Made by a program: the position numbers and the translations under genes
The notes under the pieces: generated by a model
Told to the model about the DNA's origin: nothing
Databases searched by the model: none
The model's input: the letters and a program-made list of their open reading frames with translations, nothing else
Shown here: positions 5,239 to 55,052 of the stretch, piece by piece
How the letters are laid out: each line of letters begins with the position of its first letter
Position numbering within the stretch: the first letter of the stretch is position 1
Source of the DNA: Marinitoga piezophila KA3
Lineage (GTDB): Bacteria; Thermotogota; Thermotogae; Petrotogales; Petrotogaceae
Reading direction: 5' to 3'
Length of the DNA stretch: 64,000 nt
Assembly (NCBI RefSeq): GCF_000255135.1
Contig: NC_016751.1
Coordinates: 1,674,001-1,738,000, forward strand

Positions 5239-6765
5239 ATGAGAACATTTTGTACGTCAGGACCAGTTGATAAGAAAACATGTTATTATGTTGAAAGACC
5301 GGATATAATGGCAGAAGCGCTTGATCATATAGAAAACTGGAGATATTTTACAGTATCTGCACCAAGACAGAGTGGAAAAACCACATTGTTGATGGATATT
5401 GTAGAAAAAGTAAAAGAGAAATATTTGCCAATATTTATATCATTTGAAAGTTTTGGAAGAATAAAAACAGAAGAGATGTTTATAAAAAACTTCAATAAAA
5501 AGGTTAAGAATTTTTTTAAGTTTAATATGGATATAGATTTTGAACCAAAAAAAATATCAGCTATAAGTGAATTAGATGAGTATATAATGGACATAAATAA
5601 AAAGTTTGGAAAAGATGTAATTTTAATGATAGATGAATTTGAAAGGTTAAACGAAACATTAATGAATGAATTTCTACACGTAATAAGAGAAATATATCAT
5701 TCAAGACATGGATATAAACTCAGAAGTGTAATATTAATCAGTGTAAGTTATTTAAGCGGAGTATTGGAAGACAATGCAAGTCCATTTAACATAGCAGAAC
5801 ATATGGAAGTACCATACTTTACAAAAGAACAGGTATATGATTTATTAAGCCAACATGAAAAAGAAACAGGGCAAATATTCGATGAAAAAGTAAAAGAATT
5901 AATATGGCATAACGCAGCAGGGCAACCTGGACTAACCAATGGTCTTGCATATGATTTAGTTACTAAAAAAGCTCCTGGTGAAAAGATTATAACAGTGGAG
6001 CATTTTGAAAAGACACTTGAAGATTATATGTATGTCTATATTGATAAAAATATAGCCAATATATTGCATAAAGCAGAAAAAGAAAAGGAATTAATAATGA
6101 AAATACTATTTGAGCCTGGAAAAGTAAAATTTTCAATATACGATAAAAGAATAAATTTTCTATATCAACACGGAGTAATAGATAATTGTGGAGGTAAATG
6201 CTGTGTAAGAGTACCATTATACTACAAAGCGTTATATACAAGATTTATGCCGGAAATAAACGGAGAAAAAAACTATATGGCAACAATAAATGATACAATA
6301 AAGCCATACATAAAAAAAGACGGAAGTCTTGATTTAAATAAATTACTCGAAAGATATACAGAATATATCAAATTAAGAGGAGCGATAATGTTTAAAGGAA
6401 GGAATTATTATGAAGGAGTATATCAATATAACTTAGACCAATTCTTAAGCTTATATGTAGAAGCAGCAGAAGGAAAGGTATATCCAGAAACACAGGTAGG
6501 AGGAGGAAGGATAGATTTATTAATAAATCTAAATAATAGAGAATATCTAATAGAAATAAAAGCAAATCTAACAGGAAATGAATATGAAAAATCGAAAAAG
6601 CAATTAGTGGAATATTTAAAAAGAAGTGGCTTAAAAGAAGGCTGGCTTGTGATATATTCAGAAGCAATAGAAGATTTCAAACATGAAATAGAAGAAATAG
6701 ATGGAGTAAAAATCAATGTGTGGTTTATAAAAACGAACTTTGAAAGTCCATCGAAAGTGAATTAA
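5239..6765 (+). CDS. AAA-like ATPase with C-terminal PD-(D/E)XK nuclease-like domain
   Basis: 508 residues. The N-terminal domain fits the AAA-like ATPase family (compare Pfam AAA_35/AAA-ATPase_like): GPVDKKTCYYVERPDI, then Walker A APRQSGKTTLL near residues 41-51, and Walker B VILMIDEFERLN. The C-terminal part (about 350-500) has a PD-(D/E)XK pattern with GGGRIDLLI and YLIEIKAN near residues 420-445. Such two-domain proteins occur in many copies in some genomes and have no settled role; defence or mobile-element functions have been proposed. GGAGGTGG precedes the ATG. It converges on the TPR-like gene across a shared terminator. A deleted copy lies at 55098-55148. Confidence 0.8.
   Translation: MRTFCTSGPVDKKTCYYVERPDIMAEALDHIENWRYFTVSAPRQSGKTTLLMDIVEKVKEKYLPIFISFESFGRIKTEEMFIKNFNKKVKNFFKFNMDIDFEPKKISAISELDEYIMDINKKFGKDVILMIDEFERLNETLMNEFLHVIREIYHSRHGYKLRSVILISVSYLSGVLEDNASPFNIAEHMEVPYFTKEQVYDLLSQHEKETGQIFDEKVKELIWHNAAGQPGLTNGLAYDLVTKKAPGEKIITVEHFEKTLEDYMYVYIDKNIANILHKAEKEKELIMKILFEPGKVKFSIYDKRINFLYQHGVIDNCGGKCCVRVPLYYKALYTRFMPEINGEKNYMATINDTIKPYIKKDGSLDLNKLLERYTEYIKLRGAIMFKGRNYYEGVYQYNLDQFLSLYVEAAEGKVYPETQVGGGRIDLLINLNNREYLIEIKANLTGNEYEKSKKQLVEYLKRSGLKEGWLVIYSEAIEDFKHEIEEIDGVKINVWFIKTNFESPSKVN

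Positions 6766-6807: not shown

Positions 6808-6814
<7 letters not shown>
6783..6814. terminator. bidirectional intrinsic terminator (family shared with 49179 and 55149)
   Basis: Stem CCTTCCAGA/TCTGGAAGG with A- and T-rich flanks between two convergent genes. The same hairpin sits at the 3' end of the paralogous TPR-like gene (49179-49211) and of the remnant at 55149-55180. Confidence 0.85.
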
Positions 6815-8415
<1,601 letters not shown>

Positions 8416-8605
8416 TAAAAACACCTCAAATAATTTGTAACTCTTTTTTTACATCTATTTTTGTTATTTAATTCATAATAATTCTCAAAAAAAATAAATG
8501 TATTAGATTCTTATAATCGCTATAAAATTATTTTTTAGATTGTTACAATAAAATAACGAAAATGGATTAATAATAAAATTAACAAATGCAAATCCTAAAA
8601 CATTG

Positions 8606-8716: not shown

Positions 8717-8848
8717 ATGAAAAAAATAATAACCTTATTTGTTATTTTACTACTAATGTCAGCAAACATTGTTTTTGCTGGAGATAATGATGATGAATAT
8801 AAAACAGATTCAATCAATCCTCAAATCCAAATTGAATTTTCTGAATAA
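8717..8848 (+). CDS. 43-residue secreted peptide, candidate pheromone precursor (copy 1)
   Basis: Encodes 43 residues: a signal peptide (MKKIITLFVILLLMSANIVF, then Ala) followed by a mature part of about 22 residues, acidic at its start and ending INPQIQIEFSE. GGGGGGAAGG precedes the ATG. The gene at 50946-51077 has exactly the same length and the same last ten residues (NPQIQIEFSE). Codon-level conservation of the mature end, while the signal peptide drifts, argues for a real peptide under selection. It is divergent from the TPR-like gene and upstream of two exporter genes. Export is likely; a signalling role is inferred from the architecture. Confidence 0.8.
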   Translation: MKKIITLFVILLLMSANIVFAGDNDDEYKTDSINPQIQIEFSE

Positions 8849-8874: not shown

Positions 8875-8905
8875 TTTTATATCTACGTAGATATTATATC
8901 AAAAA
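8875..8905. promoter_or_regulatory. conserved palindrome element between peptide and cargo genes (copy 1)
   Basis: Contains the perfect 16-bp palindrome ATATCTACGTAGATAT at 8879-8894. The 31-nt block around it is identical at 51099-51129, in the same place after the second peptide gene. It is not GC-rich and lacks a terminator T tract, so an operator or RNA element is more likely than a terminator. Confidence 0.6.
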
Positions 8906-8962: not shown

Positions 8963-10519
8963 ATGAAACTAAAAACAAAAAATAATATATTATTTGTATT
9001 AGAAATATTATTGAGAGTAGGATATGGAATAGCAATTCCCTTATTACTAAAGTGGATAATAGATATGTCAATAAAAAGTCCTGAAAAGGCATTGTACGGA
9101 GCGTATATTTATTCAGCAATGGTGCTTATTGAGTTGATGTTATTGTTATATTTTGGAGTGAAGAATAGGCATATATGGCCACATTTTTATACTGAGAAAA
9201 TAAAAAGTTTAATATTAAAGGGATTATATGATAAAAACAAAAAACATGAAAATGGAAAATTAATAAATATAATATTTGATGATTCATATAATGTAGTTGA
9301 ACCAACACAGATATTCTTTGCAATGCTATATGCAAGATTAATAAAAACATTTATAGCTTTTGGAATAATCTGGTATATAGCCGGATTAAAATATTTTTTA
9401 ATATCATTGATATATTTAGCAGTATTGGGAATAAATTCATATATTATTCATAAAATAAAGTATGACGAAATAAATAATGCATATAAAAATCTTATGGATC
9501 ATTATCTGGATTTTATTTCTGGAAATAAGGTTATATACCAATATAATATATTTGATAGCTTCTATAAGTTAAAGGAAAAACATGAAATTAAGAATATAAA
9601 AGAGCAAATGAAATATTATATAAAATATGTTTTTGGAAATCTTTTAAATTCAATATCAACAGTAATATATAATGTAATGATGGTATATTTATTGGTAAAT
9701 GATATAAAAACTGGAATTTTAACTCTTGGAACATATTTTATGATTTTCCAGTTTAAAGAAGATATAACAGATCCACCAGAAGTATTATATTTCTTATTAA
9801 ACGAATTTAAAAAGATAAAAGTAAGTAGAGAAAAAGTTAAAGAAATAGAGGAAATTTCTACAGAAAATACTTATGAAATAATAGGAAATGATTATATAGA
9901 AAAACCTGAAATTGCAGTTGAAAAATTAAAATTTGGATATAATGGGAAGAATAAAATATTTGAAAATTTAAATTTTAAATTTTCAGGGCCAGGATTATAT
10001 TTAATAAGAGGAAAAAGTGGAATAGAAAAAAGTACATTGATAAAAATTCTATTAAAATTTTTTGAGCCAGAATACGGAAATATATTAATAAATGGGAAAA
10101 ATATAAAAGAGGTTAGTCCGGAATATCTGAAAAGAAATATAAAGGTTTTGATGCAGGATAGTTATCATATTAGAGGAACAATAAAAGAAAATATAGATTT
10201 TGGAAGAAATCATGAAGAAGAGAAAATAAAAGAAACAATGCGAAAAACGGGCTTAGAAGATTTAGATGTAAATTATACAATAGATTTTAACGGAGAAAAT
10301 ATTTCAGGAGGACAATTAAAACGTGTATTAATTGGGCGAACTATAATAGACGATTCTCAAATAGTAATTTTTGATGAACCATTTGTAAATATAGACAATA
10401 AAAATAAAGAATTAATAATTGAGATATTGGAAAAAATAAAAGAGAAGAAAATGTGTATAGTAATAACTCATGATCATATCCTTGATACTAAAGCTGACAA
10501 AATATTGGAGTTAGGGTGA
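8963..10519 (+). CDS. ABC exporter half-transporter with degenerate Walker A
   Basis: 518 residues: an N-terminal six-helix transmembrane domain (about 1-290) and a C-terminal nucleotide-binding domain (about 310-518), the layout of ABCB-type exporters. The P-loop reads GKSGIEKST, with Glu where the family has the invariant Gly before Lys. The signature (ISGGQLKRVLIGRT), Walker B (IVIFDEPFVNID) and H-loop (ITHDH) look intact. The start follows GGAGTGTGAG. The stop overlaps the next gene, so the two probably form a heterodimer with one weakened ATP site. The upstream secreted-peptide gene suggests peptide export or immunity (inference). Confidence 0.85.
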   Translation: MKLKTKNNILFVLEILLRVGYGIAIPLLLKWIIDMSIKSPEKALYGAYIYSAMVLIELMLLLYFGVKNRHIWPHFYTEKIKSLILKGLYDKNKKHENGKLINIIFDDSYNVVEPTQIFFAMLYARLIKTFIAFGIIWYIAGLKYFLISLIYLAVLGINSYIIHKIKYDEINNAYKNLMDHYLDFISGNKVIYQYNIFDSFYKLKEKHEIKNIKEQMKYYIKYVFGNLLNSISTVIYNVMMVYLLVNDIKTGILTLGTYFMIFQFKEDITDPPEVLYFLLNEFKKIKVSREKVKEIEEISTENTYEIIGNDYIEKPEIAVEKLKFGYNGKNKIFENLNFKFSGPGLYLIRGKSGIEKSTLIKILLKFFEPEYGNILINGKNIKEVSPEYLKRNIKVLMQDSYHIRGTIKENIDFGRNHEEEKIKETMRKTGLEDLDVNYTIDFNGENISGGQLKRVLIGRTIIDDSQIVIFDEPFVNIDNKNKELIIEILEKIKEKKMCIVITHDHILDTKADKILELG

Positions 10520-10524
10520 GAAGT

Positions 10525-12168
10525 ATGTGGAAAATTATAAAAAATGTTGGATATAAAAATCTGTTTCTCTTTTTTATTTCAGTAATATTTGGAGTATCAA
10601 GTATGATTTTTCAGGTAAAGGTTCCAATGCAAATAAAAGAAATACTGGATGGAGTAATTCAAAATAAAAATTTTGAATTAAATTTGATAATTATGCTATT
10701 TTTATATTATATATTATCAGAACTATCGGAATCAATTTCAAAGGTTTTATCTGTATATTCTCAACTTTTATCTGAAAAGGAATTAAGAAAAAGAATACTG
10801 AAAAATATTATAGAAAATAAGAGAGAAGATATATCTAAAAATGGAATAGGATATATACAGGCAATAATATTTACTGATATAGAAACATTTTTATCAATAA
10901 TGAATCCAAGAATTGTTTTAAGTGTTTTGTCTATAATATATATAATATTATCAAGTTATATAATGTTCCAGATAAATAAGGTTTACACAGTAATTTTAAT
11001 AGCCTATATAATAGTAGTATTTATGTATTTCAGAAAAGCCTGGGAAATAAATTCAAAAGGTTTTGAAAAATTAAGAAATGAAGAAAGGGAAATAAAAGCA
11101 TATACAGAAAATTTATTGAAAGCCAGGGTTGATCTATATTTGTTTAATAAGATAAAACATTTTTTTGATGTTAAATTGAATAATAGGTTTGGAAGCTATA
11201 CTCAAAAAGCAAAAAAAGCATATTCAATTAATCATAAATATATAAATATGTTTCCTGAATTTATTAGAAATACAGCATTCGTATTGATTTTAATAATATC
11301 AATTAATCAATTAATAAAGAGAGAAATAACCTTTGGAACCTTTCAGATGATAATGAGTTATTCAGGAACAATATTGATAATTGCATCGCAATTATCATTA
11401 ATAACAGGTGAAATTTCAAAAGCATTGTCAACCAAAAAGATTTTACAGGAATATATAAGCATTCCAACTAAAAATGAAATAGAAAAAGTTACAGATATTT
11501 CACAAAAAAATGAAATAGAAAAGTTTAATGAAAGTATAAAATCATTGGAAATTGATAAAGCTGGTTATGGATATGAGGATAAAAAAATAATAGAAGGTTT
11601 AACGTTTAAAGCAAAATCAAATGAAGTGATTATATTAAAAGGAAAAAGCGGTAGTGGAAAAACTACATTTTTTGAGGTATTAGTGGGGAATCTTCCGTTG
11701 TTAGATGGTAAAATAAGAATTAATGGCAAAGAATTAAAAGAAAGTATATTAAACAAAACTGCATATATGAATCAAAATGATTATATATTTAAAGAAAGTA
11801 TATATGAAAATATATCTCTTGGAAGAGATATAGATAAAAAAGAAGTGGAAAGGATTTTACAAATTTTAGATTTAAAAGATTTTGATTTAGATTATGAATT
11901 AGAAGAAAATGGGAAAAATATATCCGGGGGGCAAAAATCAAGAATATTACTTGCCAGAACATTAATATCTAAAGAAAAAGAAGTAATATTGCTTGATGAA
12001 CCTTTAACCGGAGTTGATAAAAAAACAAAACAAAAAATATTGGATAGATTAAACGAGTTTTTTAAAAACAAAATAGCTATAATTTCTACACATGATGATG
12101 ACATAACTAAATTGGGAAAGATTATTGATATTGAAAAATATTTAGCAGTAAATAGCAATGAAAAATGA
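10525..12168 (+). CDS. ABC exporter half-transporter, catalytically intact partner
   Basis: 547 residues from ATG 10525, preceded by GGGTGAG; GTG 10516, overlapping the upstream stop, is an alternative start. Six membrane helices (about 15-300), then a nucleotide-binding domain with a normal Walker A (GKSGSGKTT), signature (ISGGQKSRILLART), Walker B (VILLDEPLTGVD) and H-loop (STHDD). With the upstream half-transporter it should form a heterodimeric type IV ABC exporter. Substrate unknown; the 43-residue peptide encoded upstream is the natural candidate. Confidence 0.87.
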   Translation: MWKIIKNVGYKNLFLFFISVIFGVSSMIFQVKVPMQIKEILDGVIQNKNFELNLIIMLFLYYILSELSESISKVLSVYSQLLSEKELRKRILKNIIENKREDISKNGIGYIQAIIFTDIETFLSIMNPRIVLSVLSIIYIILSSYIMFQINKVYTVILIAYIIVVFMYFRKAWEINSKGFEKLRNEEREIKAYTENLLKARVDLYLFNKIKHFFDVKLNNRFGSYTQKAKKAYSINHKYINMFPEFIRNTAFVLILIISINQLIKREITFGTFQMIMSYSGTILIIASQLSLITGEISKALSTKKILQEYISIPTKNEIEKVTDISQKNEIEKFNESIKSLEIDKAGYGYEDKKIIEGLTFKAKSNEVIILKGKSGSGKTTFFEVLVGNLPLLDGKIRINGKELKESILNKTAYMNQNDYIFKESIYENISLGRDIDKKEVERILQILDLKDFDLDYELEENGKNISGGQKSRILLARTLISKEKEVILLDEPLTGVDKKTKQKILDRLNEFFKNKIAIISTHDDDITKLGKIIDIEKYLAVNSNEK

Positions 12169-49178: not shown

Positions 49179-49211
49179 AATAACCCTTCCAGAAATTCTG
49201 GAAGGGTTATT
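49179..49211. terminator. bidirectional intrinsic terminator (same family as 6783)
   Basis: AATAACCCTTCCAGAA/TTCTGGAAGGGTTATT stem shared by the convergent permease and TPR-like gene. Confidence 0.9.
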
Positions 49212-50649
49212 TTAAAAACCTCTCAATAATATCATCAAGTAAAACTCTTTCATCATCTTCAAAAGAGTAATAACCAAGAGCAACACGCTTATAGCCTAAA
49301 CCATATTTAAGAGCAAAATCACGAACCTTTCCTTTTGGATAAGGAGTAATGGGCCATTTAATATCGTATCGAACGCAATTTCTTAAAAACACATCAAATA
49401 TTCTCATTTCCTCATCACTGAGCTTAAAATAATTAAAAACAAATTCCTTAAAGTTCTTTGTTTTCTTAAAAAGCTCAGTGATGAGTTTTTTTCTTGCTAA
49501 ATAAAATGGTGAAATATTATATTCCGCATCTTCAACATCTTCAGAATTCAATAATCTTCTTTCAACTTTCTTCAAATTAAAATCACTCATCATAACATTA
49601 AAAAAATACATCTTCTCATAATTAGCAGAAAAGAATTTAATGATTTTATCTTTATTACCTTCAAAAATCAATTTCAAAATATGACTCTTTGTAAAAAATG
49701 GTTTTTCTATTAATGCTGTATATGCTGAGAAGAATAATATTGGGATTTTATGATTTTTAATTTTTTCTATGATGGAAAGGTTATCTCTGAAATTATGAGA
49801 GATAATTTTTTTAAAACTTCTATTTCTGAAAAAGCTTTTATTATTATAAACCTCTTCAAAATCAGATTTAATCTCAAAAGATACATTATTCTTATAATTC
49901 ATAACAACGGATGAAATATCAAATAAATTTAAAGACTTATTTATTTTATATACCTCAAAAATCGTATCAAACCAGTTATAGGTATAATTTAAATCATCGA
50001 AATAATAGCCAATATAATATTCAAGTAAATTTGCAGGAATTAAAGCCTTCTTTTTATCTTCATTTCTCATCCACCATGCAGCACCATTTAAACCATTACA
50101 CATCATAGTTGGATGTGGAAAGTCTTCTGCAAGAAAATAACCTTCTATGAATAATTCATATGCTTTATTATATTCTTCATTTTTAATATGTTCTCTTGCA
50201 TGAGAATATTTTAAAATAGCCTTATCTACATTATTTTTTTCATAATTATCAGAATATATTTTAAAATCATTAGTTATATTATATGATTTATTAAATAGAT
50301 TCAATCCTGGTAATATTAAACATCTTGCATAAGCTGGAAGGTTTTCAAAATTGTTTCTTAATATAATAACTTCTTTTTTCGCTAAATCAGATTTTCCTAT
50401 TTTATAGTACAAAGAAATGAGTTCAAATCTTGCTAATTCTTTTAATATTGTTGTTGTTGTTGTTGTTGAAATAGTTTTATTTGCATAAAATATAGCAGAA
50501 TCAAAATCTCTTTTCCATTTTGATTTTAATAACAGAAAATAAAATTTTAAAGAAATATCTTTTGTATTCTCAAATAAAAAATTGATTACGGGATAAGAAA
50601 AATATCCAAAACTAATAATATCAATAATATTCTTCGTAGAAGAGTTCAT
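49207..50649 (-). CDS. TPR-like helical-repeat protein, candidate peptide receptor (copy 2)
   Basis: 480 residues from ATG 50649 after AAAGGGTGAT; GTG 50658 is less likely. Paralogue of the protein at 6808-8415. The N-terminal half is clearly related, the middle (about 225-300) is largely unalignable and shorter, and the last about 185 residues differ at only about ten positions by eye; DNA is equally similar there, which points to recent duplication or gene conversion. TPR-like segments EEYNKAYELFIEGYFLAEDF and HPTMMCNGLNGAAWW are shared. Six Thr codons replace the ten-Thr run. It is divergent from the second secreted peptide and the RiPP cluster. Confidence 0.75.
   Translation of the reverse strand: MNSSTKNIIDIISFGYFSYPVINFLFENTKDISLKFYFLLLKSKWKRDFDSAIFYANKTISTTTTTTILKELARFELISLYYKIGKSDLAKKEVIILRNNFENLPAYARCLILPGLNLFNKSYNITNDFKIYSDNYEKNNVDKAILKYSHAREHIKNEEYNKAYELFIEGYFLAEDFPHPTMMCNGLNGAAWWMRNEDKKKALIPANLLEYYIGYYFDDLNYTYNWFDTIFEVYKINKSLNLFDISSVVMNYKNNVSFEIKSDFEEVYNNKSFFRNRSFKKIISHNFRDNLSIIEKIKNHKIPILFFSAYTALIEKPFFTKSHILKLIFEGNKDKIIKFFSANYEKMYFFNVMMSDFNLKKVERRLLNSEDVEDAEYNISPFYLARKKLITELFKKTKNFKEFVFNYFKLSDEEMRIFDVFLRNCVRYDIKWPITPYPKGKVRDFALKYGLGYKRVALGYYSFEDDERVLLDDIIERFLK
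50450..50467. repeat. in-frame trinucleotide microsatellite (GTT)6
   Basis: Six GTT units (ACA, Thr, on the coding strand), at the position of the ten-unit tract in copy 1. Confidence 0.95.
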
Positions 50650-50864
50650 ATCAATCACCCTTTTTAAATTAACTATTTTGTTACATACAAAATAAAAATC
50701 TAAGGAACTTAAGCTTAATTAGAATATAAAAAATCTCAGATGAAAATGTGAAATATCTAAAAAAACGTAAATAAGCCCTGCATAAAAACTTTACGGTTAA
50801 ATTACGAAGATTAAGAAAAAGAAAATTAATAAAAATACAACAAAAATGAAATTTTGAAACACTG

Positions 50865-50897: not shown

Positions 50898-50925
50898 TTG
50901 AAAACCATGTTAGAAATGGTAAAAT
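50898..50925 (+). promoter_or_regulatory. promoter of the secreted-peptide gene (copy 2)
   Basis: TTGAAA, 16 nt, TAAAAT, nearly identical to 8639-8666. The spacer carries ACCAT/ATGGT inverted arms. Confidence 0.6.
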
Positions 50926-50945: not shown

Positions 50946-51077
50946 GTGAAAAAGATAATTATTTTAATATTAATAGGAATAATCATGTTTTCATCAATAG
51001 TATTAGCAGGAGATAACGATAAAAAATATAAAACAGATTCATACAATCCTCAAATCCAAATTGAATTTTCTGAGTAA
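50946..51077 (+). CDS. 43-residue secreted peptide, candidate pheromone precursor (copy 2)
   Basis: GTG start after GCAGGAGGTGGGATA. 43 residues: signal peptide (KKIIILILIGIIMFSSIVLA), then GDNDKKYKTDSYNPQIQIEF and a final Ser-Glu. Relative to copy 1, the mature part differs at three positions only (DE to KK, I to Y), while the signal sequence is freely changed. Same length and the same flanking promoter and palindrome. It leads directly into the Cys-rich precursor/radical SAM operon, so it may be the signal that controls peptide production (inference). Confidence 0.8.
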   Translation: MKKIIILILIGIIMFSSIVLAGDNDKKYKTDSYNPQIQIEFSE

Positions 51078-51098: not shown

Positions 51099-51129
51099 TT
51101 TTATATCTACGTAGATATTATATCAAAAA
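51099..51129. promoter_or_regulatory. conserved palindrome element between peptide and cargo genes (copy 2)
   Basis: Palindrome ATATCTACGTAGATAT at 51103-51118 inside a 31-nt block identical to 8875-8905. A possible -10 (TACAAT, 51133-51138) lies just downstream, so it could control a second promoter for the precursor genes. Confidence 0.6.
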
Positions 51130-51168: not shown

Positions 51169-51312
51169 ATGAAATGGATTGAGAGAAATGATGAATATTC
51201 AGAAGAATTCTGGTGTCCATGCAAAGGACCTGTGTGTTTTTTAGATTGTTGGATATTATGTACTTGTAATGGACCAGGAGGATGTTATGAAGCCTGTACA
51301 ATAGTTCAATAA
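51169..51312 (+). CDS. Cys-rich RiPP precursor peptide 1
   Basis: 47 residues with eight Cys. Leader begins MKWIERNDEYSEE, core starts FWCPCKGPVCF and includes CTCNGPGGC. It has an almost complete Shine-Dalgarno (AAAGGAGGTGTGAT). First of four tandem precursors before the radical SAM gene, sharing the M-x-W-I-E start and CxCxGxxxC motif. No signal peptide, as expected for a precursor exported by an ABC system. It closely resembles precursor 6 at the DNA level. Confidence 0.82.
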   Translation: MKWIERNDEYSEEFWCPCKGPVCFLDCWILCTCNGPGGCYEACTIVQ

Positions 51313-51333
51313 GAATTTTTGGAGGTGGAATTT

Positions 51334-51483
51334 ATGAAATGGATTGAAAAAGACAATGAATTTGAACTTGATTTTAAATTTTCTTGTAATATTTTACCAA
51401 TCGTTTGTCCATGCTATGGGGAAAGTTGCTTGTTTAAGTGTCATTGTCAGGGAGATCATTCATGTCATGAGCAACATTTTTAA
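51334..51483 (+). CDS. Cys-rich RiPP precursor peptide 2
   Basis: 49 residues with seven Cys. Starts MKWIEKDNEFELDF, has CPCYGESC and the late motif CHCQGDHSC. GGAGGTGG precedes the ATG. Lies 21 nt after precursor 1. Confidence 0.82.
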   Translation: MKWIEKDNEFELDFKFSCNILPIVCPCYGESCLFKCHCQGDHSCHEQHF

Positions 51484-51518
51484 TTTAAGCAATAATTAAG
51501 GTAGAAAGGGGATTGATA

Positions 51519-51680
51519 ATGTATTGGATTGAAAATGATGAAAATAATAACTTATTAAATAGTTTTTGGTGTCCTTGTAGAGGAGAAATATGTTTGTTTA
51601 AAAGTTGCACCTGTTATGGCGGGGCGTGTAAATATCATTGCGAATGGAAACATGTATGCTATTCTCAATTAACTCCTTAA
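51519..51680 (+). CDS. Cys-rich RiPP precursor peptide 3
   Basis: 53 residues with eight Cys. Starts MYWIENDENNN, followed by FWCPCRGEICLF and a one-residue-shorter form of the late motif (CTCYGGAC), then an extra C-terminal Cys-containing tail. GAAAGGGG precedes the ATG. Confidence 0.8.
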   Translation: MYWIENDENNNLLNSFWCPCRGEICLFKSCTCYGGACKYHCEWKHVCYSQLTP

Positions 51681-51701
51681 AATGTAGAAAGGGGAATAAA
51701 T

Positions 51702-51845
51702 ATGAAATGGATCGAAAAAAATTATAATGATTATTTTATGTGTGGAGGATGTAAAATTTTAAAATTTATTTGTTTGTGTTTCGGTATTCAATGTTTAATT
51801 GCATGTAATTGCGATGGAAATGGAATATGTAATGAGAAAGGGTGA
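51702..51845 (+). CDS. Cys-rich RiPP precursor peptide 4
   Basis: 47 residues with eight Cys. Starts MKWIEKNYNDYFMCGGC and ends with the motif CNCDGNGIC. GAAAGGGG precedes the ATG. The WCPC element is replaced by CGGC. Its stop lies just before the radical SAM start. Confidence 0.8.
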   Translation: MKWIEKNYNDYFMCGGCKILKFICLCFGIQCLIACNCDGNGICNEKG

Positions 51846-51850
51846 GAAAT

Positions 51851-53179
51851 ATGAAACCTTCAAAATATAATTTTATATTTGAATATGAAAAAAATATTCT
51901 TATATATAATGCTTTGAGCGGAGGTTTTGCAATAATTGAACCAGAAGTTAAGAAAGCATTATCTTCAGAAAAAGATTTAGAAGAATTTATAAACAAAGAA
52001 AAAAATAAAAAAATCTATAAAGAATTAAAAAAAGGGAAATTTATTGTTGATTTTGATGAATTAAAATATATAAATTTTATATATAACTCATTAAAATTTG
52101 AAAAAAAAGGATTAGGGTTAACCATTGCCCCAACAATGAATTGTAATTTTGCATGTGAATATTGTTACGAACTAAGAAAAAAAGTATTTATGGATAAAGA
52201 AGTAAAAAACTCAATTGTGGATTTTGTAAAACAAAATATAAATGAAATAAATTATTTATCAGTGTCATGGTATGGCGGAGAACCTTTACTAGATTTAAAA
52301 ACTATAAAAGAACTGTCAAAAGAATTTATAAAATTGTGTCAAAGTAATAATATAAAATACACCGCATCAATAGTAACAAACGGATATTTATTAAATTCAA
52401 AAGTAGCAAAAGAATTGAAAAATTTAGAAATAAAAACTGTTCAAATAACAATAGATGGTCCAAAAAAAATTCATGATAAAAGAAGACCTTTAATAAATGG
52501 AAAAGGAAGCTTTGAAACTATAATAAATAATATAAAAGGAGCAAAGGAATATTTTGAACATATAAGTATAAGGATTAACATAGATAAAACAAACGAAGGT
52601 AAAATAATTGAATTGTTAAAATATTTAAAAAATGAAGGATTAACAGAAGAAAATTGTAGCCCATATCTTGCATTTGTAGATGTATCGACAGAAGTATGTA
52701 GAGATATAGAAATAAATTGTATTGATATAAAAAATCGTTCAGAATATATGATAGAAAGAGTAAAAGAGGCGTATGAAGAAGGTATAAATATTATAAAATA
52801 TCCAACTCCTATGTATTCGCAATGCGGTGCAGTAAAACCAAATAGTTTTGTAATAGATCCAGAAGGATATATGTATAAATGCTGGCATGAAGTGGGAATA
52901 AAAGCATTAGCGATAGGGAATATAAAAGGAAATGAAAAGAATAAAAATTTTGATAGATATTTAAAATGGAATACATTTAATCCTTTAAATTACAAAGAAT
53001 GTAAAAATTGTAAGTTTTTACCATTATGTATGGGGGGCTGTCCGGATAAAACATTATTTAAGTATAATGGAATACAAGAAGAAGGATGTACAATGTATAA
53101 ATATAATCTCGAAGAAATGTTAAAAATGCATCTGAAAGCAAAATTGAAAAAAGGCTTTTTACCAATACCAGTAAAATAA
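51851..53179 (+). CDS. radical SAM/SPASM peptide-modifying enzyme
   Basis: 442 residues from ATG 51851, preceded by GGGTGAG; an in-frame GTG 51842 is less likely. The N-terminal about 90 residues (IYNALSGGFAIIEPEVKKAL) look like the leader-binding region of SCIFF/ranthipeptide maturases. The radical SAM cluster is CNFACEYCYE near residue 98, SWYGGEPLL follows. The C-terminal SPASM region has Cys in YSQCGAVKP, YKCWHEVG, CKNCKFLPLCMGGCPD and EEGCTMYK for auxiliary clusters. It sits between Cys-rich precursors, so thioether formation is the likely chemistry (inference). Confidence 0.9.
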   Translation: MKPSKYNFIFEYEKNILIYNALSGGFAIIEPEVKKALSSEKDLEEFINKEKNKKIYKELKKGKFIVDFDELKYINFIYNSLKFEKKGLGLTIAPTMNCNFACEYCYELRKKVFMDKEVKNSIVDFVKQNINEINYLSVSWYGGEPLLDLKTIKELSKEFIKLCQSNNIKYTASIVTNGYLLNSKVAKELKNLEIKTVQITIDGPKKIHDKRRPLINGKGSFETIINNIKGAKEYFEHISIRINIDKTNEGKIIELLKYLKNEGLTEENCSPYLAFVDVSTEVCRDIEINCIDIKNRSEYMIERVKEAYEEGINIIKYPTPMYSQCGAVKPNSFVIDPEGYMYKCWHEVGIKALAIGNIKGNEKNKNFDRYLKWNTFNPLNYKECKNCKFLPLCMGGCPDKTLFKYNGIQEEGCTMYKYNLEEMLKMHLKAKLKKGFLPIPVK

Positions 53180-53192
53180 GGAGGGGATTTTT

Positions 53193-53342
53193 ATGTCATG
53201 GATAGAGGAACCAAAAAAACCAGAAGAAAAAATTTGCTGGTTCAAATGGTTAGACGATTTTTTTGATTGGTTTAAACATACTTTTCATATTTTTGAATGT
53301 AATTGTGAAGGCGAAGGAGTTTGTCTTGAAGTAAGGGAGTGA
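53193..53342 (+). CDS. Cys-rich RiPP precursor peptide 5 (divergent)
   Basis: 49 residues with four Cys. Starts MSWIEEPKKPEEK, then a Trp/Phe-rich amphipathic stretch (WFKWLDDFFDWFKH) and the conserved late motif CNCEGEGVC. It lacks the WCPC element and half of the cysteines, so it may be a differently processed product or a helper peptide. AAGGAGGGG precedes the ATG. Confidence 0.78.
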   Translation: MSWIEEPKKPEEKICWFKWLDDFFDWFKHTFHIFECNCEGEGVCLEVRE

Positions 53343-53346
53343 AATA

Positions 53347-53493
53347 ATGAAGTGGATTGAGAGAAATGATGAATTCTCAGAAGAAATATGGTGTCCTTGT
53401 AAAGGACCTCATTGTTTAATACATTGGTGTGAACTATGTATAATTTTATGTGATTGTAAAGGTGAAAACTTTTGTAAAAAAAATTTTAATTAA
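53347..53493 (+). CDS. Cys-rich RiPP precursor peptide 6
   Basis: 48 residues with eight Cys. Starts MKWIERNDEFSEEIWCPCKG, very close to precursor 1 including at the DNA level, and ends with CDCKGENFC. It starts 4 nt after precursor 5. The likeness suggests a duplication on either side of the radical SAM gene. Confidence 0.82.
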   Translation: MKWIERNDEFSEEIWCPCKGPHCLIHWCELCIILCDCKGENFCKKNFN

Positions 53494-53505: not shown

Positions 53506-54318
53506 ATGAAAACAATAAAAAAATTCCTGTATTTTCTGGTAAGAGATGTATTAATATGGAAAAGCTACAAAACACAGGCAGTATTGGGGATACTGAGTGG
53601 ATTCCTGGGATTATTGCAATTTGGATTCATGGGAAGGTTTATAGCCCAGGGGAATTACTTTCCAATGATAGAGCAGTATGGAGGAAACATACTAGCATAT
53701 TTCATATCAGGAAGCGTATTCATGAGTTACACTACTCTCTCCTTAACAACATTCAAAAGTGTAATAAGACAGGAGCAGGTAATGGGAACAATAGAATACC
53801 TGCTCCTGTCGGAAACACCATTATGGGAAGTATTTATATACACAATCTTCTCAAGATTGGTATTTACAATAATAAACACAGGAATAGTATTTATATTCTT
53901 AATATACACATTTGATGTAGAAATAAAAATGAATATAATAGCATCAATAATATTATTGATAATAACAATGATAAGTTTAAGTGGAATAGGGTTATTAAGT
54001 GCAGGGTTCATAATGCTAACCAAAAAAGGAGACCCGGTAAGTTGGGTATATTCATTCTTAACAGGAATGTTTTCAGGGATATACTATCCGGTGGAAATAT
54101 TGCCAAAATGGATAAGGGGAGTATCGTATATACTACCAACAACATATGCAATGGATGGATTGAGAAAAACATTAATAAAAGGATACAGTCTATACGAAAT
54201 AAAAGAGGATATAATAATCCTGATAATAATGACAGCAATAATATTACCAATAGGGATATACTGGTTCAGAGAATCATTTAACAAAGCCAGGAAATATGGC
54301 ACAATATCGCAGTATTAG
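53506..54318 (+). CDS. ABC-2 type permease of the RiPP cluster
   Basis: 270 residues with about six membrane helices and the ABC-2 core (GIGLLSAGFIMLTKKGDPVSW, FSGIYYPVEILPKWIRGVSY, LPTTYAMDGLRKTL). Pairs with the ATPase encoded 11 nt downstream to export or give immunity to the modified peptides. No peptidase domain is present, so leader removal needs another enzyme. Its DNA is T-poor and A-ending in codon choice compared with the precursor genes. Confidence 0.88.
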   Translation: MKTIKKFLYFLVRDVLIWKSYKTQAVLGILSGFLGLLQFGFMGRFIAQGNYFPMIEQYGGNILAYFISGSVFMSYTTLSLTTFKSVIRQEQVMGTIEYLLLSETPLWEVFIYTIFSRLVFTIINTGIVFIFLIYTFDVEIKMNIIASIILLIITMISLSGIGLLSAGFIMLTKKGDPVSWVYSFLTGMFSGIYYPVEILPKWIRGVSYILPTTYAMDGLRKTLIKGYSLYEIKEDIIILIIMTAIILPIGIYWFRESFNKARKYGTISQY

Positions 54319-54329
54319 GAAGTGAAACA

Positions 54330-55052
54330 ATGGAAAAAATAATAGAAATCAAAAACCTGACAAAAATATACAAAAATGGAATAAAAGCACTGGAAAATAT
54401 AAATCTAACAATAAACCGAGGAGAAAAAATAACAATATTTGGACCAAATGGAGCAGGAAAAACAACATTAATAAAAACAATAGGAATGTTCATAATACCG
54501 GATAAAGGAAAAATAACAATAAAAGGATATAACATAAAAAAAGAATCAAAAAAAATAAAAAAATTAATATCAATAGCGACATCAAATGAAAGGTCATTCT
54601 ATTACAGATTAAGCTTAGAAGAAAATCTAAACTTCTTTGGAATGTTAAACAACCTAACAGGAAAAGAATTAAAAAAGAAAGTGGAAAAAGGATTAAAAGA
54701 AATGGGGCTATACGAAACCAGGAAAATAAAGTATATGGAAGCATCAACGGGGATGAAAAGGAGATTAAATCTAGCAAGGGCATTAATAAAAGAAGCGGAA
54801 ATATATTTACTTGATGAACCGACAAATGGAGTGGATATAGAAACGAAAATAAAGATATATGAAATAATGGAAGAATTAAGTCAAAAAGGAAAAACAATAA
54901 TCTTAGCCAGCCATGATGTAAGTGAAATAGAAAAAACAGACAGGATAGTGGTATTAAAAAAAGGGAAAATAACAGCAGATAAAAAAACAGGAGAAATCCT
55001 GGAAAAAACAACGAGAAAAAATGAAGAAAAATTGCTGGAATTAATCAAATGA
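54330..55052 (+). CDS. ABC transporter ATP-binding protein of the RiPP cluster
   Basis: 240 residues. Walker A FGPNGAGKTTLIKT, signature ASTGMKRRLNLARAL, Walker B IYLLDEPTNGVD, H-loop ASHDVSE. Partner of the permease just upstream. The TGA stop lies within the left arm of the terminator hairpin. Codon style is the same T-poor, A-rich type as the permease gene. Confidence 0.9.
   Translation: MEKIIEIKNLTKIYKNGIKALENINLTINRGEKITIFGPNGAGKTTLIKTIGMFIIPDKGKITIKGYNIKKESKKIKKLISIATSNERSFYYRLSLEENLNFFGMLNNLTGKELKKKVEKGLKEMGLYETRKIKYMEASTGMKRRLNLARALIKEAEIYLLDEPTNGVDIETKIKIYEIMEELSQKGKTIILASHDVSEIEKTDRIVVLKKGKITADKKTGEILEKTTRKNEEKLLELIK

Follow-up and report, generated by a model that had tools for sequence, protein, structure and literature searches.

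A probable Clo7bot-like RiPP operon of Marinitoga piezophila KA3 with a proposed peptide-receptor switch

Among described systems, the closest in layout is Clo7bot (CtpM, TIGR04334) of the Bacillota, where tandem Cys-rich precursors of ~40–55 aa with short M-x-F-I-x-x-P starts are encoded together with one radical SAM/SPASM enzyme and a downstream ABC transporter. In Paraclostridium, an annotated Clo7bot locus has seven Clo7bot peptides plus an additional Cys-rich ORF, their starts being of the MKFIKKP type, followed by the maturase and the ABC transporter. A second related group is TIGR04463 (‘rSAM_vs_C_rich’) with the CefA/CefB (Cys-every-fifth) system, and a more distant one is that of the SCIFF ranthipeptides, in which a single SCIFF precursor is served by a maturase such as CteB with an RRE + SPASM layout. 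Neither Clo7bot nor TIGR04463 was mentioned in the literature searched.

On the regulatory side, the closest counterparts are the RRNPPA systems (Rap, Rgg, NprR, PlcR, PrgX, and AimR), also of the Bacillota, where a small secreted propeptide gene lies next to the gene of a cytoplasmic TPR protein that may or may not carry an HTH, often near biosynthetic operons. The Thermotogota are a diderm thermophile phylum, and the RRNPPA literature examined makes no mention of Thermotog* and describes no peptide-receptor system there, a silence that is no more than weak evidence of novelty. In this phylum, the TM1298–TM1336 locus of Thermotoga maritima, with its peptide TM1316, was reportedly described by Frock et al. 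in 2013, and that work is not known to have described its cassette as a receptor-peptide pair. The TM1316 locus is a stationary-phase locus whose induction is unexplained.

The window, a stretch of 64,000 nucleotides whose own positions are used below, comprises bases 1674001–1738000 of the 2,231,407-base M. piezophila KA3 chromosome, the genome having one small second contig. It holds six precursor genes, a radical SAM/SPASM maturase, and an ABC pair, preceded by a regulator/secreted-peptide cassette that goes beyond what the preliminary description of this DNA had covered. We consider it reasonably probable that the whole is a RiPP operon of Clo7bot-like type governed by a peptide-receptor switch.

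The cassette begins with a gene (49207–50658, minus strand) divergent from the precursor operon and encoding a 483-aa helical protein, a candidate receptor or regulator belonging to a Thermotogota-wide family with a TPR-like N-terminus. Of 103 Thermotogota genomes, 59 encode members of this multi-copy family, which is absent from plasmids; the present genome has about eight copies that are substantially complete. Distant members carry a central Cro/C1-type HTH (in L098, HTH_26 at residues 296–345 of 545, 30.5 bits against a cut-off of 22), a stretch that the short Marinitoga subclass to which the window copy belongs has lost. TPR_12 matches were found in eight of 38 members, all of them weak and below the curated cut-off (best E 1.4e-4), and none in the window copy, which itself gave no match to Pfam or NCBIfam and no significant TPR or HTH. 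Against PDB sequences, the family profile found no RRNPPA protein, only pumilio, designed or consensus TPR, and other weak matches, and an AlphaFold2 model of the protein, made with its one window paralog, was unusable (pLDDT 41.6, pTM 0.31).

On the other strand, a σ70-like promoter (50898–50925, plus strand; TTGAAA-16-TAAAAT with TG before the −10), a consensus match only that is conserved between paralogous cassettes, lies 5′ of a GTG-started gene for a 43-aa secreted-type peptide (50946–51077, plus strand). In this candidate signalling propeptide, a signal sequence is followed by the tail NPQIQIEFSE. The peptide is common to seven cassettes of this genome, and its tail is the most constrained part (pN/pS 0.36). 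Its match to the NCBIfam family PhrA_Strep (E 0.0065) is below cut-off and is a lead only. Next comes a palindrome, ATATCTACGTAGATAT (51103–51118), which is a candidate operator: its 14-base core has six exact matches in the genome, each of which stands in front of a cassette copy, and all six exact TATCTACGTAGATA sites of this genome are found about 445–490 nt in front of a cassette regulator. In genome G003, one TATCTACGTAGATA immediately precedes a radical SAM gene that has no regulator anywhere near it, and the cassette copy at 2194005 is without both secreted peptide and palindrome. Since the cassettes of this genome are recent paralogs, their common peptide and palindrome stem in part from duplication.

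Several other cassettes deserve mention. A second one in the window has a longer regulator paralog (6808–8424, minus strand), a secreted peptide (8717–8848, tail NPQIQIEFSE), and the palindrome (8879–8894), and downstream of it are two ABC exporter half-transporters (8963–12168) without a radical SAM gene. Elsewhere in this genome, further cassettes (L077, L078, L079, and L080) each lie 5′ of a radical-SAM or ABC operon, and some short ORFs with Cys residues, MKTIKKFKILEIGTYNVEEPNFCGFCSFCSPIWGKKVLTK (L078) for example, are possible further RiPP precursors. A paralogous RiPP locus in this genome (L037, G000:C2:1574.7–1584.0 kb) combines a cassette with three radical SAM genes, a Cys-rich MEFVNEP precursor, and an ABC pair that is a close copy of the one in the six-precursor operon. 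A near-identical protein of 508–510 aa (M..MFCTSGPVDKKTCYYVERPDIM..., P-loop RQSGKTT), possibly of a mobile or island-associated ATPase family, adjoins several cassettes (window 5239–6765, L077 11788–13320, and L078 5478–7010).

Across the phylum, a divergent secreted-type ORF was found at the same position in 36 of 49 distinct members of the regulator family, compared with none of the 49 on the opposite strand and 17 of 490 random segments. The operons 3′ of the cassettes are mostly of the radical-SAM or ABC-export kind. Among the matches listed, 23 of 34 radical SAM genes lay no more than 6 kb from a member of the regulator family, where 1.3 were expected, and not one of 20,000 rotations, which used the coordinates of those matches, gave a value as high. 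The same picture is found in genome G093, which we take to be T. maritima MSB8, where a region at 1325–1353 kb (L163/L164) has three copies of the regulator, each with its divergent secreted-type ORF. That region also holds a 31-aa peptide, MQKMPKPVVPNDYLNPGKGCGGAGLVCGWCG, presumably TM1316, before a radical SAM gene, together with two Cys-rich MEFLNxP peptides, two radical SAM enzymes, an ABC pair, and HicAB pairs. A wider proposal can be drawn from this, namely that the Thermotogota possess a peptide-receptor system of their own, outside the Bacillota RRNPPA set. It would consist of a TPR/HTH-type receptor and a divergent secreted propeptide, with about eight cassettes in this genome and a common palindromic box, and would chiefly control operons for radical-SAM RiPPs and for export, among them the stationary-phase locus of T. 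maritima and the six-precursor operon. We regard the prospects of this wider proposal as evenly balanced.

In such a switch, the 43-aa peptide would leave the cell, be cut down to a short signal from its C-terminal end (about NPQIQIEFSE), and be taken up again, whereupon binding by the 483-aa protein would alter operon expression. The gene of the peptide would stand first in the operon, which would give autoinduction. The alternative that survives best accepts the RiPP operon and denies the signalling pair: the 483-aa protein would answer some other cue, and the 43-aa peptide would have an immunity or envelope role connected with the exported products. It accords with the company that the secreted peptide keeps, which is export and RiPP operons, with the missing HTH region of the window protein, and with the fact that no import or processing step for the peptide is known. 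However, the peptide is linked to the regulator (in the 36 of 49 cases, divergently and at a similar distance), including cases in which the operon that follows encodes only ABC transporters, and a short conserved tail behind a signal sequence is pheromone-like. We judge this alternative unlikely and keep to the peptide-receptor switch as the preferred account of the cassette.

The operon proper opens with four precursor genes, P1 (51169–51312; 47 aa, 8 Cys), P2 (51334–51483; 49 aa, 7 Cys), P3 (51519–51680; 53 aa, 8 Cys), and P4 (51702–51845; 47 aa, 8 Cys), and two more follow the maturase gene, P5 (53193–53342; 49 aa, 4 Cys) and P6 (53347–53493; 48 aa, 8 Cys), the latter a close paralog of P1. 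All six are on the plus strand, and a plausible ribosome-binding site, as judged by eye, precedes each. The preliminary description had claimed six short ORFs with 4–8 Cys, an M-x-W-I-E start, and a CxCxGxxxC tail that is one residue shorter in P3, and in these respects it was right, positions and strand included. The start is found in all six and the full tail in five, with CxCxGxxC in P3. An additional upstream C(P/L)CxGxxC in every precursor except P5, which is without the first CPCxG motif, means that the motif occurs twice in those five. The degenerate string ATGNNNTGGATHGAR (ATG-NNN-TGG-ATH-GAR) has nine matches in the 2.24-Mb genome, six of them the starts of P1–P6, while its reversed control has none across the same 2.24 Mb; this clustering is not due to chance. 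Orthologs of all six, in the same arrangement, are present in a Marinitoga relative (G006). Pooled dN/dS between the two sets is 0.18, the changes concentrate at the third position of codons and within residues 6–15, and nearly all Cys are kept. The precursor genes are under purifying selection.

A profile of the precursors found them in only four of 103 Thermotogota genomes, all four Marinitoga, the fifth match being weak and interrupted by stops. When the precursors were searched against NCBIfam and Pfam, no family exceeded its cut-off, neither a known RiPP model nor a metal-binding family. A zinc-binding family identity was dropped because there was no match at all. The precursor family is called new because nothing in NCBIfam or Pfam matches it above cut-off, and on these profile searches it appears to be lineage-restricted as well. 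Same-type loci of other Marinitoga and their relatives have the leaders MEF(V/I/L)NxP, MEWIMKP, and MLWIIKP, and considering these Thermotogota starts together with the MKFIKKP of Clo7bot, M-x-W-I-E is one form of a short leader of the general type M-x-aromatic-aliphatic.

The maturase gene (51851–53179, plus strand) has an ATG start and encodes 442 aa. Its radical SAM motif CX3CX2C (C98/C102/C105) and seven SPASM cysteines (C325, C344, C384, C387, C393, C397, and C413) are invariant in 21 homologs, and it exceeds the cut-off of TIGR04085 (68.5 bits against 27). The curated equivalogs are another matter, as it meets none of their NCBIfam cut-offs: TIGR04463 scores best (354.3 bits, cut-off 525), followed by the Clo7bot maturase TIGR04334 (334.5 bits, cut-off 600) and, also below cut-off, the CefB maturase (294 bits) and the ranthipeptide maturase PapB (163 bits). 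The SCIFF maturase TIGR03974 comes last, and a SCIFF identity is ruled out by its score (105.1 bits, cut-off 425). The family profile covers nearly the full length of CteB (5wgg) and aligns residues 8–86 with its RRE-bearing N-terminal region; the N-terminus has no Pfam PqqD/RRE match. On this ranking and this alignment, the enzyme belongs among the peptide maturases in the Clo7bot/C-rich branch and is not of SCIFF type. Accordingly, the SPASM cysteines that the preliminary description had noted are confirmed, its SCIFF/ranthipeptide-type assignment finds no support, and the comparison with ranthipeptide enzymes that it suggested puts both PapB and SCIFF beneath TIGR04463, Clo7bot, and CefB, with all under cut-off. 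The ABC exporter it had recognized is also there, as family matches to an ABC-2 type, DrrB-like permease (53506–54318, plus strand), a candidate exporter/immunity subunit, and a DrrA-like ATPase (54330–55052, plus strand). No leader protease gene was found inside the operon.

The six-precursor locus is very probably a RiPP operon. The RRE-like N-terminal region of the enzyme would bind the very short M-x-W-I-E leader. The enzyme would then abstract hydrogen at an acceptor residue, and in each core the thiol of a Cys would close a thioether, at the alpha or a non-alpha carbon; for the predicted products we can only infer thioether chemistry. An unlinked protease would cut off the leader, the ABC pair would export the set of related products and/or protect the producer, and the products might serve in competition or signalling. 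Counting against this scheme are the failure of the precursors to match any known RiPP model, P5 being without most of the cysteines, the equivalog scores of the enzyme, all under cut-off, and the lack of a leader protease gene in the operon. Alternatively, the six peptides could be unmodified or bind metal, in the manner of a small metallothionein or zinc ribbon, with the radical SAM enzyme acting on some other substrate. CxC pairs are indeed frequent in metal sites, and no homolog whose product is characterised was found. What makes this quite improbable, beyond the lack of any metal-binding match above cut-off in Pfam or NCBIfam, is the enzyme itself, with its full SPASM set and RRE-like N-terminus, and the company it keeps: enzyme and precursors stay together in intact orthologous clusters, and even a distant enzyme of 43% identity (G005) has M-x-W-I precursors of its own. 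One precursor of that G005 locus resembles CefA weakly (E 0.001, below cut-off).

Decayed relatives of the RiPP operon also exist. When public genome contigs were scanned with the enzyme, the only match was Marinitoga lauensis, which has two near-identical degraded orthologous clusters (L033 and L034), the enzyme full of stops and several precursors still open. This genome itself has a fossil copy at ~2.22 Mb (L002, G000:C2:2221030–2222336; 2222230) with a truncated regulator and a decayed P1. That the window operon might likewise be part of a decaying, non-functional RiPP island, as these broken copies could suggest, is highly improbable, as all window genes are open and dN/dS against G006 is 0.18 for the pooled precursors and 0.10 for the maturase.

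As a RiPP operon, the locus pairs a single thermostable radical SAM maturase with six natural variants of the core, a small set from which acceptor rules could be read. The cassette in turn suggests a possible genetic basis for control of peptide production by population or growth phase in Thermotogota, and with it the induction of the T. maritima TM1316 locus in stationary phase can be tested directly.

Compared with Clo7bot, then, the locus has the same tandem short precursors, single radical SAM/SPASM enzyme (38% identity), and downstream ABC transporter, so that the arrangement, which the preliminary description had offered as a candidate new multi-precursor family, is a known one; the multi-precursor operon stands, and it is the precursor family that is new. 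Unlike those of Clo7bot, these precursors lie on both sides of the enzyme, combine an M-x-W-I-E start with CxCxG(x)xxC, and fit no model. TIGR04463 with CefA/CefB has the best enzyme score and a weakly CefA-like G005 precursor in its favour, but the window precursors do not match CefA and are without the Cys-every-fifth spacing. To the SCIFF system, there is distant enzyme homology, with six divergent precursors here against one SCIFF. The T. maritima locus shares the phylum, radical SAM enzymes, small Cys peptides, ABC transporters, and the cassette, in three copies there; it differs in its HicAB pairs and in the 31-aa TM1316-type precursor, which is unrelated in sequence. The cassette itself resembles RRNPPA in organisation, whereas the domain order of its family is TPR-HTH-C-terminal, with the HTH central rather than N-terminal and absent from the window copy, and the phylum is another. 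RRNPPA membership is not claimed, because the likeness is one of organisation and the domain order differs; RRNPPA-like quorum control of RiPP operons would be the best reading.
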